From an uncultured archaeon (GTDB lineage: Archaea > Thermoproteota > Bathyarchaeia > TCS64), in the NCBI GenBank assembly GCA_938048735.1, contig CALIUM010000027.1, positions 1-40,472 on the forward strand: a stretch of DNA of 40,472 nt. The letters run 5' to 3'. This document shows positions 7,565 to 34,033 of the stretch, piece after piece. Each line of letters starts with the position of its first letter. Position 1 is the stretch's first letter. A program made the position numbers and the translations under genes. The notes beneath the pieces are model-generated. The model searched no databases. It had not been told where the DNA came from and worked only from the letters and a program-made list of their open reading frames with translations.

Positions 7565-7611
7565 AATCCAGCATCAAGAATATCTATGGAATAAAGGCGA
7601 TATTAAGAGTG

Positions 7612-8277
7612 ATGAAGAGGATCGGCTTATTAACACTCGGGCAGTCGCCTAGGACTGATATACTCCCAGATATGATGATGATCCTAGGCCAAGAGTTCGA
7701 GGTTCTTGAGGCAGGGGCCCTAGACGACTACACATCCCGAGATGTGGAGGGGCTCCCTATTAGGGAGGGAGAGGAGATCCTCGTTACGAGGATGAGGGAT
7801 GGAAGAGAGGTGAAGGTGACGAAGAGTTTCATCGTCCCATTGATCCAGAAGAGGATCTCGGAACTCGAGAAAGAGGTTGAGATCATACTGCTACTATGCA
7901 CTGGAAGGTTCCCGGAGTTCAAGTCAAAGGCGCTGATCGTGACGCCGTCAGAGATTGTAAAGGGGGCCGTCAACGCGGCCATAAGGAGGGGTAGGCTGGG
8001 TGTAGTCTACCCCGCCAAGGAGCAGACAGCCCACGCTTATAGGGAGTGGGGCAGGGAGGGGCTTGAGGTCCACGCGGATGCAGCATCCCCCTACGGTTCG
8101 GAGGGTGAGATAGCCGCGCTCGCTGAGAGGCTTGCGGAGAAGAACCTCGATCTCATCCTCCTGAACTGTATGGGCTTCGGTTATAAGGCCAAGTTGCTGA
8201 TCAGGGAGAGGACCGGGAGGCCTGTTATCCAGGCGAATACCCTCGTGGCAAGGGTTCTGAAGGAGATCGCCTCCTAG
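7612..8277 (+). CDS. AroM family protein
   Basis: A 221-residue protein of the AroM family. The E. coli member sits beside aroL, but no biochemical function is established. The family's N-terminal signature IGLLTLGQSPRTD is at residues 4-16. The C-terminal half has the Asp/Glu racemase-like pattern, including LLNCMGFGYK, consistent with a two-lobed fold. The frame can also start at a GTG one codon earlier (7609); the ATG at 7612 is preferred. It follows the Lhr-like helicase and converges with rlmE two bases away. No shikimate gene is nearby, so the E. coli context does not transfer. Confidence 0.8.
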   Translation: MKRIGLLTLGQSPRTDILPDMMMILGQEFEVLEAGALDDYTSRDVEGLPIREGEEILVTRMRDGREVKVTKSFIVPLIQKRISELEKEVEIILLLCTGRFPEFKSKALIVTPSEIVKGAVNAAIRRGRLGVVYPAKEQTAHAYREWGREGLEVHADAASPYGSEGEIAALAERLAEKNLDLILLNCMGFGYKAKLLIRERTGRPVIQANTLVARVLKEIAS

Positions 8278-21900: not shown

Positions 21901-22407
21901 TTAAAGGGCGGATTGAATAACCAGTTCATCTAGCATGCTGATGGTTGCTTCTAGGTCTTTTATATCGATCTCGATGACTTGAGGCTCTAATCCTCTTCTC
22001 TTCAGCTCCTTTAACAACTCCTCGAAGAAGATTCCCCCGGGGTTGGAGCCGGGCTCGACCTCCTTAGCTGCGCAGCTTGGGGATCTCGCAAGCCCTATCA
22101 AACCCATTAGTTTGAGCCCTGGCCTCCTACTCATGTTTATAAGGGCCTCTATGCCTGAGCTGGCCTCTAGTGAGAGCTTTTTAACATGCTCCCTATAGCC
22201 TCTCAGCCTCTCATACTCCCCCCTCGTCATCGATGGTCTAGGATTTCCTAGGAAGGTTAGCTCAGGGCATGGAAGCTGATAGACTCCAAATCCGAGTTCA
22301 TCCAGCCTCTTAACGACCTTCCATAGGCATCCCTTAGATGGGTCGCTGCCCTTCTCCTCATTCCACCACCTTGTAGCCTGGTTGAGGATGCAGTGGGCTA
22401 CAGCCAC
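21901..22407 (-). CDS. TudS-related (DUF523-like) putative desulfidase
   Basis: A 168-residue protein resembling DUF523/TudS, a family whose characterised member removes sulfur from 2-thiouracil using a [4Fe-4S] cluster. The three cysteines expected to hold the cluster are in family-like contexts: C6 in HCILNQ, C47 in LPCPE and C112 in SPSC. The start is a GTG at 22407; no ATG is in frame nearby. It begins 13 bp after the stop of the TtuA-like gene on the same strand, so the two are probably cotranscribed. A role in tRNA thiolation or in turnover of thiolated nucleobases is suggested by this neighbour but not proven. Confidence 0.75.
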   Translation of the reverse strand: MAVAHCILNQATRWWNEEKGSDPSKGCLWKVVKRLDELGFGVYQLPCPELTFLGNPRPSMTRGEYERLRGYREHVKKLSLEASSGIEALINMSRRPGLKLMGLIGLARSPSCAAKEVEPGSNPGGIFFEELLKELKRRGLEPQVIEIDIKDLEATISMLDELVIQSAL

Positions 22408-22420
22408 AACTCCCAGCTCT

Positions 22421-23332
22421 CTAATTCCTCTTCACCAAATCCACCCTTTTACAGTAGGCACATATATCTTCCGAGCTTGGGAAGCCACACCTCCTGCATG
22501 TCTTCAGATCAGGTTGGGTTATCTCCCTCTCGAGAATGGGTATGAGCTTCTTGAGGAAGAGTGAGAGAGCCTGATACCTAAAGCCCGGACGCCCTTTCCC
22601 CAGCGCCTCGAGAACTTCCCTCCCCTTCTTTATCGCGGGTGAGTGGGGGCAGTTCTCAGCTCTTATGGGGATCTCTGTGTAGAGGGCGTACATGTAGTCC
22701 TCGAACTCGCTCAGCCTAATGAGGGGCTTTACCTTCTTGGTTTGCTTGGGGTGTCTTGGGGGGAGAACTGGTTTCAACCTTATGAGCTGGGCTAGGTCTC
22801 CCGCGAAGAAGGTCTCCAACATGGTCGATACCACATCGTCGAGGTTATGCCCAGTGGCGAGGGTCTTTACGCCTGATTCCAGGGTCATGGAGTCCAGCAG
22901 GTGCCTCTTAATGACGCCGCAGGGGGAGCAGACTCGATTCCTATAGATGGTCTTGAGGAAATCATCCACTGTGAATCCCATCTCCCCTATCCTCAAGACC
23001 CTGAGCTCAGCCCCATCCATATCCGCAAGCCTTCTAACCTTCTCCTCGCAGTGGTCGGAGTAGCCCTTTATACCGAGGTTTATGTGTAAAGCTTGGAGTT
23101 CAAGGTCGGGGTATACCCTCCTCAGAGCGTGTAGTAGAGCCCCGCTATCCTTACCTCCCGAGACCGCGACGGCTAACCTCTCATCAGGCCTGAACATCTT
23201 AAACTCTTGAACGGTCTTCATAAGCCTCTCCTCGAAATATTCCATGAAACAGTCGGGGCAGAGCCTCAATCCTCCCGCTGCAACCCTCACCTCAGCAGGT
23301 GCACCTCTACATCTGCTGCAGAGTACTGGCAT
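22421..23332 (-). CDS. TtuA/Ncs6-type tRNA 2-thiolation enzyme
   Basis: A 303-residue ATP-pyrophosphatase that activates a tRNA uridine for sulfur transfer, either U54 (TtuA) or U34 (Ncs6/NcsA). The N-terminal zinc finger is C5/C8 with C25/C28. The PP-loop is SGGKDS at 58-63. Catalytic cysteines are C135 and C138 in CSPCG, with C228 as the third [4Fe-4S] ligand in the TtuA pattern. GHNLDD is at 161-166, and a second zinc finger closes the protein (CRRC and CAYC). The ATG at 23332 has AGGGGATT upstream. Which uridine is modified is not decided by sequence alone. The TudS-like gene follows. Confidence 0.9.
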   Translation of the reverse strand: MPVLCSRCRGAPAEVRVAAGGLRLCPDCFMEYFEERLMKTVQEFKMFRPDERLAVAVSGGKDSGALLHALRRVYPDLELQALHINLGIKGYSDHCEEKVRRLADMDGAELRVLRIGEMGFTVDDFLKTIYRNRVCSPCGVIKRHLLDSMTLESGVKTLATGHNLDDVVSTMLETFFAGDLAQLIRLKPVLPPRHPKQTKKVKPLIRLSEFEDYMYALYTEIPIRAENCPHSPAIKKGREVLEALGKGRPGFRYQALSLFLKKLIPILEREITQPDLKTCRRCGFPSSEDICAYCKRVDLVKRN

Positions 23333-31613: not shown

Positions 31614-32165
31614 ATGTCCTCCGGGAAAGATGAGGAAAAACCAGCCCAAGGTGAGGATCCCATGAAGAGATTGGCGGAGTTAGAGGCGGCATATCTAGGG
31701 GAGAAGCAGAAGGCGGACTCATTTCTAAACCAGCTGAAGTATGCCCAAGCAGATATCGAGAACCTAAGGAAGCAGATGCAGAGGAGGGTGGAAGAGGAGG
31801 TGGAGAGGTGGAGATCCCACCTCCTGCTGCAGCTCCTACCAGTGGTGGAGGAGCTTGATCTCGCCATAGAGTCTGCAAGTGAGGCTGATGGGTCTCAGCT
31901 CCTTCAAGGCGTGAAGATCATCAGAAAGAAGCTGGGAAGGATCCTGGAGAGGGAGGGGGTCTCCCCCATAGAGGCCTTGGGAAAACCCTTCGACCCCAAC
32001 CTCCACGAGGCGGTTATGGAGGTGGAAACCCCTGAAAAGGAGGACGGGATGGTCGTAGAGGAGGTGAGGAAAGGCTACCTCCTAAGGGGGAGGGTTCTCA
32101 GGCCTAGCATGGTAAAGGTGGCCCGCAACCCGGTCTCGAGGAAGATCGAGGAGGTGAGCAGATGA
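31614..32165 (+). CDS. grpE: GrpE nucleotide-exchange factor
   Basis: A 183-residue GrpE: an acidic N-terminus, a long coiled-coil helix (about 17-75, with [18 protein letters not shown]), and a C-terminal beta domain with [12 protein letters not shown] and [20 protein letters not shown], the conserved DnaK-contacting segment. It speeds ADP release from DnaK. A TATA-like ATAAATAA at 31568-31575 lies upstream. Its stop overlaps the dnaK start by four bases (ATGA), so translation is coupled. No dnaJ lies beside the pair. Confidence 0.95.
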
Positions 32166-34033
32166 GCGGTGAGAAGAGGGAGAAGATTATAGGGATAGAC
32201 CTGGGAACCACGAACTCAGCCGCCGCCGTGATGATTGGAGGGAAGCCCGTTGTGATCCCAAGCGCCGAGGGGCCGACGGTGGCGGGCAAGATGTTCCCAT
32301 CCGTGGTGGCATTCACAAAGGATGGGCAGATCCTAGTAGGGGAGCCCGCAAGGAGGCAGGCCGTCACAAACCCGGAGGGGACCATCAGGGAGATAAAGAG
32401 GATGATGGGAACCGACTATAAGGTTGAGGTCTTCGGCAAGGAGTATACACCCCAGCAGATATCTGCATTCATCCTCAAGAAGATCATTAGAGATGCGGAG
32501 GACTACCTGGGGGAGAAGATAACCAAGGCCGTCATAACGGTTCCCGCACACTTCAATGATAATCAGAGGCAAGCGACCATAGACGCGGGGGAGATCGCAG
32601 GGCTGAAGGTGACTAGAATAATAAACGAGCCGACTGCGGCAGCCCTCGCATACGGCTTGGACAAGGCGGATAAGGAGATGAAGATAATGGTCTTCAGCTT
32701 CGGCGGGGGGACCAACGACACGACGATAATGGAGATAAGCGGAGGCGTCTTCCAGGTTCTGGCGACGAGTGGAGACACAAAGACTGGAGGGGCCGACATC
32801 GACAACGCAATAGTCGACTATCTGATTGAAGAGTTTAGGCGTGAGACCGGCATAAACCTCAGGGGTGATGTGAGGGCGATGGCGAGGCTAAAAGAGGCGG
32901 CGGAGAAGGCGAAGATAGAGCTCTCGAACCTCCTGACCACCGATATAGATCTCCCATATATAACCTCCGACGCCACCGGTCCGAAACACCTCCACATGAC
33001 CCTCACAAGGGCTAAGCTTGAGCAGCTGGCAAGGCCGATCGTGGAGAAGATAAGGGAACCGATTATGAGAACACTAGCAGACGCAAAGCTAACGCCCAAA
33101 GATATAGATAAGATAATCCTTATAGGAGGCCAGACCAAGATGCCACTAGTCCAGCAGTACATAGAGGAGATCATGGGGAAGAAGCCGGAGAGAGGTATCG
33201 ACCCCATGGAGTGTGTTGCCATAGGGGCAGCGATACAGGGGGCAGTACTGGCCGGAGAGATAACGGACATACTTCTCCTCGACGTCACACCTCTCTCCCT
33301 AGGTGTCGAAACCCTTGGGGGGGTCTTCACGAAGATCATAGAGAGGAACACTACGATACCCGTTAGAAGGAGCCAGATATTCACCACGGCCGCCGACTTC
33401 CAGACTGCTGTCACGATCCACGTACTGCAGGGTGAGAGGGCCATGGCTAAGGATAACATCAGCCTTGGCCGCTTCGACCTGACTGGGATCCCTCCAGCCC
33501 CAAGGGGGGTGCCCCAGATAGAGGTAACCTTCGATATAAACGCCGACGGGGTTCTGAATGTTACCGCGAAGGATCTCGCTACCGGGAAGCAGATGGGGAT
33601 CACGATAACGGCGTCGACAAAATTGAGCAAGGAGGAGAAGGAGAGGATGATTAGAGAGGCCGAGCAGTATGCCGAGCAGGACAGGAAGGCCAGAGAGCTC
33701 GCCGAGGCGAAAAACCTCGCAGATTCACTGATCTACACGACGGAGAAGACTCTAACCGAGCTTGGGGACAAGCTCAAGGATGAGCATAAGACCAGGATTA
33801 GGAAGGCCGTCGAAGAACTCAAGGAGGCCATGAAGACGGACAAGACTGAGGAGATAAATAGGAAGGCCGAGGAGCTGAGAAAGGTGGTTCAAGAGGCCGG
33901 AGCAGAGGTTTACCAGAGGGTAGCCTCACAATATGCCCAGCGGCAGGAGGGAGGAAAGACCTCCTCGGAGGAGGGGAAGAAGAGGGTAGACGCCGAGTAT
34001 AAGGTCGTAGATGAAGAAGAGAAGAAAAGGTAA
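32162..34033 (+). CDS. dnaK: DnaK (Hsp70) chaperone with an altered active-site motif
   Basis: A 623-residue Hsp70: an N-terminal ATPase ([11 protein letters not shown] with D13; [12 protein letters not shown] with E156), linker [11 protein letters not shown], a substrate-binding beta domain and a helical lid. The second phosphate motif reads [13 protein letters not shown] instead of the usual VYDLGGGTFDVSI, so the Asp equivalent to E. coli D194 (bovine Hsc70 D199) is Ser179. D186 (Hsc70 D206), T184, E156 and D13 are retained. Other usual residues also differ, for example GDTKTGGAD where GDTHLGGED/TD is common. Translation is coupled to grpE through ATGA. Slow ATP hydrolysis is inferred. Confidence 0.96.

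Follow-up and report, generated by a model that had tools for sequence, protein, structure and literature searches.

A TudS-like desulfidase gene beside a TtuA-type tRNA thiolase gene in Bathyarchaeia: a candidate system for making and clearing 2-thiouridine

Why should the gene for a desulfidase-like protein sit directly behind the gene for an enzyme that puts sulfur into tRNA? We address this question for a locus of an uncultured archaeon of the class Bathyarchaeia; the window, that is, the whole stretch of DNA that was analyzed, is 40,472 nucleotides long. A preliminary description of the locus had proposed that a TudS-like desulfidase, acting as a sulfur partner or as an eraser or salvage enzyme, is paired with a TtuA/Ncs6 thiolase. 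Opposite reactions in one operon are plausible, and the pairing suggests that the making of a modification is tied to its clean-up. The reading that we prefer, with a probability of about 0.45, is that a small operon couples the making and the clearing of 2-thiouridine, and that the TudS-like protein would desulfurize 2-thio-UMP or 2-thio-5-methyl-UMP derived from tRNA turnover. Little is understood of how sulfur is removed from 2-thiouridine; RudS and TudS, the desulfidases compared here, act best on 4-thiouridine species.

The two genes and their products

Both open reading frames lie where the preliminary description had placed them, on the minus strand, with the TtuA-type gene first and the TudS-like gene second. 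A diaminopimelate decarboxylase gene, 110 bp off, is the upstream neighbor on the same strand, and a convergent ABC permease gene lies downstream. The features are as follows.

22421..23332, minus strand: TtuA-type tRNA 2-thiouridine synthetase gene, ATG start, 303 aa; assigned from family models, the PH0300 match, and residues
23144..23161, minus strand: PP-loop SGGKDS, TtuA residues 58-63, from the table of relatives
22919..22930, minus strand: TtuA Cys135-x-x-Cys138, predicted [4Fe-4S] ligands, from the match to known TtuA and the table of relatives
22649..22651, minus strand: TtuA Cys228, predicted third [4Fe-4S] ligand, on the same basis
22408..22420, minus strand: junction of the two genes, 13 bp in the window; homologous pairs elsewhere overlap by 4 to 17 bp
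21901..22407, minus strand: TudS-superfamily desulfidase-like gene, 168 aa from a GTG start, perhaps longer upstream to an ATT at 22425
22390..22392, minus strand: TudS-like Cys6 in HCILN, equivalent by alignment to Cys10 of TudS_A (numbering of PMC10611767)
22366..22371, minus strand: Arg13-Trp14, spaced like TudS_A Arg17 (phosphate) and Tyr18 (base stacking) in the alignment with PDB 6z92
22261..22269, minus strand: Cys47-Pro48-Glu49, with Cys47 and Glu49 aligned to TudS_A Cys43 and Glu45 (PMC10611767)
22072..22083, minus strand: Ser109-Pro110-Ser111-Cys112, with Ser109, Ser111, and Cys112 aligned to TudS_A Ser101, Ser103, and Cys104 (PMC10611767)

The spacing of 13 bp given in the preliminary description holds for the GTG start, as it does in a related genome (G002), and it depends on that start. 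In the sister genome G001, the TudS-like gene starts from a GTG placed so that the gene shares 4 bp with the end of TtuA; the window codon aligned with that GTG is the ATT at 22425, so the true start may lie upstream of 22407 and the genes may overlap. The TudS start in the window is uncertain between these two codons. Overlaps of 4 bp are found in G001, G061, and G063, and of 17 bp in G062 and G270. Judged by dN/dS ratios of 0.11-0.28 for TudS and 0.05-0.19 for TtuA across four genome pairs, purifying selection acts on both genes.

Two further loci in the window deserve mention. An AroM family protein (PF07302, 236 bits) is encoded in this archaeon at 7609-8277, directly after an Lhr-type helicase. 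At 31614-34033, a bacterial-type GrpE gene is followed by a DnaK-like gene, and the window also carries two thermosome genes (DnaK and thermosome recognized from sequence).

The preliminary description had left the thiolase as TtuA or Ncs6; the first half of that identity stands and the second does not. The TtuA model NF049949 matches at 212 bits (E 8e-63), under its cut-off of 450, and the NcsA model at 118 bits. Known TtuA proteins are matched at E 2e-54 (PH0300, the Pyrococcus horikoshii TtuA of known structure) and E 5e-46 (Thermus thermophilus TtuA). Both zinc-finger cysteine pairs, N- and C-terminal, are present. The host genome (G000; 1.6 Mb, 94.6% complete) holds two thiolase paralogs; the second, on contig C26, is NcsA-type (221 bits for NcsA vs 159 for TtuA), and a MoaD/SAMP1-like gene lies directly upstream of it. 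MmNcsA and PhTtuA have different pocket residues (PMC10067955). At positions taken from that paper, all 7 paired TtuA proteins have L86, S92, and K142, the equivalents of PhTtuA Leu81, Ser87, and Lys135, and Glu, Arg, and Arg occupy these sites in all 16 NcsA-like proteins. The Thr228 site coincides with a gap in the alignment, and Leu254 is kept. The best model, the pocket residues, and the tree described below make the window thiolase a TtuA-type enzyme with a predicted U54 specificity; on the same three grounds, Ncs6/NcsA identity is ruled out.

The small protein carries the three TudS-type cysteines that had been claimed for it (C6, C47, and C112), just as the thiolase carries C135, C138, and C228. 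The concern that these cysteines might not be kept in close homologs has fallen away. In the thiolase, C25, C28, C135, C138, and C228 are kept in 66/66 tabulated relatives (7 paired, 43 unpaired TtuA-type, and 16 NcsA-like); in the TudS-like protein, H5, C6, C47, P48, E49, S109, and C112 do not vary across an alignment of 54 sequences (A2: the window, L064, and 52 of 69 listed references). The three putative cluster cysteines match the positions of Cys10, Cys43, and Cys104, the cluster ligands of TudS_A, which are assisted by Glu45, Ser101, and Ser103 (PMC10611767). The catalytic-type residues E49, S109, and S111 are present in the window; the Ser111 site is S, T, N, or C in relatives, and Asn replaces it in two paired genomes (G061 and G063). 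According to docking in TudS_A (PMC10611767), Arg17 contacts the phosphate, and Tyr18 and Pro102 surround the base.

The family models place the protein at a distance. PF04463 matches at 26 bits (E 1e-5; cut-off 34.7) and the nearest model, NF045597 (TudS_rel_CD3072), at 92 bits over residues 2-148 (E 2e-26; cut-off 130); both matches extend across the domain. Since neither cut-off is reached, the protein is filed as a divergent relative, neither TudS proper nor a CD3072 equivalog; its sequence places it in the TudS superfamily, as a divergent member. We call its subtype, marked by Arg and Trp at the TudS phosphate- and base-binding positions, the RWW type. An Arg at Cys+7 with an aromatic residue directly behind it occurs in 17/17 RWW-type sequences (7 paired, 10 sister) and in 0/80 other family members, one further sequence that lacks the first-cysteine motif having been skipped; it occurs in 22/22 RWW-type matches of the window's class. 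TudS itself (PDB 6z92; C10, R17, Y18) has the same step. The RWW protein keeps this phosphate-type Arg, yet it is far from known TudS in sequence.

Profile comparisons give a similar picture of remoteness. Across most of the domain, a profile of the 54 relatives aligns with one built from 11 canonical archaeal TudS (84.7% probability, E 6.6e-6), and a 12-sequence profile of the subtype alone reaches only 5% probability. The AlphaFold model has a pLDDT of 90.2; Foldseek and VIA-align searches of PDB and BFVD gave no confident structural match, with TudS not among the 50 matches listed although its sequence is in the PDB sequence set, and the family sequence profile found no match among PDB chains. 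DUF1722 was not found in the 168 aa by family model search. Elsewhere in the family, three TudS relatives (L181, L182, and L183) have lost one presumed cluster ligand, in the third cysteine motif; L181 and L183 read SPSS there, and the motif is missing in L182.

Distribution, co-occurrence, and descent of the pair

A survey of 256 genomes of the window's class and 400 sampled Nitrososphaeria genomes turned up 7 in which TtuA and TudS genes adjoin each other in one orientation; 3 belong to the window's genus and 4 to Nitrososphaeria. Adjacency was taken from loci for most matches, and from contig and position only for 16 weaker class matches. Some genomes carry two handles (for example, G051/G068, and G002/the genome of L064), and each class count uses one search. 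A first reading, based on 61 relatives, found a TudS match in 18 genomes, beside TtuA only in the three of the window's genus; the restriction to one genus that this implied was overturned by a wider genome-contig scan. Within the best 80 of 346 loci of that scan, TtuA is adjacent in four: L064 (Bathyarchaeota QZM_A1_bin_46) and L065-L067 (Nitrososphaeria MAGs, their TudS 49-54% identical). The 400 Nitrososphaeria genomes hold 10 TudS matches, 4 of them RWW-type, and all 4 lie beside TtuA (G061, G062, G063, and G270).

The pair has three flanking contexts: the window's genus, G061/G063, and G062/G270. Between G000 and G062, identity is 55% for TudS and 64% for TtuA. Behind the pair, and in the same orientation, G062 and G270 carry a gene for a HAD-family phosphatase (L066:5571-6245; L177:2069-2767); the HAD family is too broad for naming a substrate. 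Chance neighborhood in a single genome is ruled out by conservation in 7 genomes and three contexts. The preliminary description had called for a survey of gene neighborhoods in archaea and would have taken rarity as a refutation. That survey cuts both ways: RWW-type TudS adjoins TtuA in 3/22 carrier genomes of the window's class, and in 4/4 in the Nitrososphaeria sample. The pair is rare but not accidental.

Co-occurrence extends beyond adjacency. Among the 256 class genomes, the RWW type is present in 22, a TtuA-type gene in 50, and both in 17, where about 4 are expected; cut-offs were set at gaps in the score lists (RWW-type at least 93 bits, next 71; TtuA-type at least 199 bits, next 174), and genome handles for these counts were transcribed by eye. 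TtuA-type genes occur in 17/22 RWW genomes vs 33/234 genomes without RWW (Fisher p 9e-10, counted per genome). Kinship is considered only through a count by genus, in which the figures are 6/8 vs 18/100 (p 0.0014), and 5/7 vs 18/100 (p 0.005) with the window's genus excluded. The RWW type is confined to three families of the class (f1, f11, and f22), so the co-occurrence is too sparse to convince at the family level. Five of the 22 RWW genomes have no detected TtuA-type gene (G625, G628, G641, G642, and G643; completeness 66, 92, 87, 71, and 85%), and 33/50 TtuA-type genomes of the class have no RWW-type gene. In Nitrososphaeria, 18/400 genomes have a TtuA-type gene, including 4/4 RWW genomes.

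Canonical TudS, found in 52 class genomes, shows no such association (TtuA-type in 10/52 vs 40/204; p 1.0), so the association is specific to the RWW subtype, and a general co-occurrence of any TudS with TtuA is ruled out. The figures for other CD3072-type TudS are 10/33 vs 40/223 (p 0.10). In one Bathyarchaeota genome whose RWW-type TudS is unlinked, TtuA shares 4 bp with the gene of a small CxxCxxCC metal-binding protein (PF03692; L148:1509-1880).

The two genes tell congruent histories. In a tree of 91 of 98 sequences, the 7 paired TudS fall into a single clade (100/99); not included were L009 (fused ORF), L017, L023 (two pieces), L089, L114 (cut), and the second copy of L130. The 7 paired TtuA likewise form one clade (100/99), inside a larger and mostly Bathyarchaeia TtuA group, in a tree of 76 of 77 sequences (L160 left out). 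With one clade per gene, the pair probably formed once and then stayed together, through inheritance or through transfer from one class to the other. The link between the two genes that had been proposed is real: the pair occurs in two archaeal classes, its clades are congruent, and the genes co-occur even where unlinked.

Relatives outside the paired clade keep other company. The sister clade comprises 10 Bathyarchaeia proteins whose genes have HerA/NurA-like genes, and no TtuA, next to them; the loci (L027, L028, and L068-L076) share a conserved neighborhood with HerA-like, NurA-like, and winged-helix genes. At L078-L143, mostly from Bacillota, CD3072-type TudS stands beside the substrate-binding component of an ECF transporter (PF12822 by one representative, its family present in 26/98 loci), with EcfA/EcfT genes too at some loci. 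Such loci possibly encode a system that imports a thiolated pyrimidine or nucleoside.

A proposed coupling of making and clearing a thiolated nucleotide

Linkage, congruent clades, and subtype-specific co-occurrence point to a desulfidase that serves the product of TtuA. In the mechanism that we propose, the TtuA-type enzyme would adenylate tRNA U54 (or m5U54) and add sulfur via its three-cysteine [4Fe-4S] cluster, following the chemistry in the literature. The three cysteines of the TudS-like protein would hold a [4Fe-4S] cluster with one open iron; this iron would take up the sulfur of a thiolated uridine nucleotide, forming a [4Fe-5S] intermediate by the chemistry described for such enzymes, and sulfide would be released. 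Arg13 would bind the 5'-phosphate and Trp14 the base, which makes a mononucleotide from the turnover of TtuA-modified tRNA, 2-thio-UMP or 2-thio-5-methyl-UMP, the most likely substrate. The benefit would be twofold: thio-UTP is kept out of RNA, and sulfide and UMP are recovered.

The source of substrate also bears on the question of 2-thio versus 4-thio species. A full-length ThiI match to PF02568 was not found in G000, G001, G002, G062, or G270; it was found in 2/12 genomes searched (G027 and G510), both unpaired. The best PF02568 match in G000 is a PP-loop protein with an NFACT-R domain, not a THUMP-ThiI. Without full-length ThiI in those paired genomes, s4U is a less obvious source of substrate, and the main thio-nucleotides may be 2-thio species; s4U as the main substrate is thereby made less likely, on evidence that is weak because MAGs may miss genes. 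G063 encodes a ThiI-like protein (L276) with a degenerate PP-loop that lacks SGGxDS, and G061 has matches of similar score.

Several observations count for clearing of a 2-thio nucleotide: linkage, congruent clades, RWW-specific co-occurrence, the kept C6, C47, E49, S109, S111, and C112, the Arg-aromatic step, the TtuA pocket, and the missing full-length ThiI. Against it stand the preference of known TudS for 4-thio substrates, the 33/50 TtuA-type genomes without the partner, the 5/22 RWW genomes in which no TtuA-type gene was detected, the HerA/NurA neighbors of the sister clade, the spread of the RWW type over just three families of the class, the scores under the cut-offs, and Asn at Ser111 in G061 and G063. 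Characterized TudS prefer 4-thio-UMP, with no specific binding of 2-thiouridine, and TudS without DUF1722 act on mononucleotides from RNA turnover rather than on tRNA, taking 4-thio over 2-thio (PMC10611767).

Of the three alternatives, all of which we rank below clearing, an operon of convenience comes closest and is still unlikely. It holds that the desulfidase acts on some other thio-compound and that adjacency goes back to one event and then spread by descent and transfer, the two functions being uncoupled. One clade per gene for all seven pairs fits this account, since adjacency may have arisen only once; so do the different neighbors of the sister clade and the ECF transporter genes beside the Bacillota relatives. 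What it explains poorly is a pair that persists in three contexts and two classes at the divergence of G000 from G062 and with gene ends that overlap or almost touch, and an RWW type that keeps company with TtuA-type genes also where unlinked. Rather more doubtful is an eraser that takes the 2-thio group off U54 within tRNA, such that writer and eraser together set the level of the modification, perhaps in response to temperature. That the gene adjoins the writer gene and co-occurs with it suits this proposal; against it, tRNA U54 is part of the folded T-loop, and the 168-aa protein lacks DUF1722 or any added RNA-binding domain. A precedent exists in RudS (TudS-DUF1722), which removes tRNA s4U and co-occurs with ThiI (PMC11417400), but TudS lacking DUF1722 did not act on the s4U of tRNA or mini-tRNA (PMC10611767).

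The more specific version of this proposal, a dedicated s2U54 writer/eraser operon in which a compact TudS-type protein without DUF1722 desulfurizes tRNA s2U54 or acts in complex with TtuA, has in our estimate a slimmer chance still. If true, one archaeal operon would install and remove a heat-adaptive modification, and the eraser of tRNA 2-thiouridine would be of a kind not met in the excerpts of literature compared. Least probable of all is a sulfur relay, in which the TudS-like protein would form [4Fe-5S] from a thio-compound and pass sulfide to the TtuA cluster. A [4Fe-5S] intermediate has been described for both protein families (PMC8584467), and inorganic sulfide is usable by TtuA (PMC10067955). 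G000 has six ThiS-fold (MoaD/Ubl) matches, two of them beside the NcsA-type paralog, so ordinary carriers are likely available and a relay seems unnecessary. Moreover, 33/50 TtuA-type genomes of the class manage without the TudS-like protein, and the chemistry would use up the very class of product that TtuA makes.

Comparison with known systems

In the excerpts of literature searched for TudS together with TtuA, no description of the gene pair was found. The small protein resembles TudS (DUF523, PF04463; PDB 6Z92-6Z96) in its three cysteine ligands, in CPE and SPSC, in the equivalents of Glu45, Ser101, and Ser103, and in the Arg-aromatic step at Cys+7/+8. It differs in having HCILN where TudS has SACLLG at the first cysteine, Trp for Tyr18, a diverged C-terminal part, a score under the Pfam cut-off, and TtuA as neighbor. 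With the CD3072 family (NF045597), its closest model, it shares the HC-CPE-SPSC layout; unlike that family, the window subtype has the Arg-aromatic step, absent from the 80 other relatives compared, and other gene neighbors. Another parallel is RudS, which belongs to the same superfamily of desulfidases and is found together with the enzyme that makes its modification (PMC11417400); the window protein, in contrast, has no DUF1722, is linked to TtuA and not to ThiI, and is encoded by a separate gene.

The thiolase is like Pyrococcus horikoshii PH0300 and Thermus thermophilus TtuA in its cluster cysteines, PP-loop, two zinc fingers, and U54-type pocket residues. It departs from them in reaching about half the score that the NCBIfam equivalog requires and in being partnered with a TudS-like gene. 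As a defined clade, the TtuA-linked subtype offers a concrete candidate enzyme by which 2-thiouridine could be cleared, recycled, or erased.
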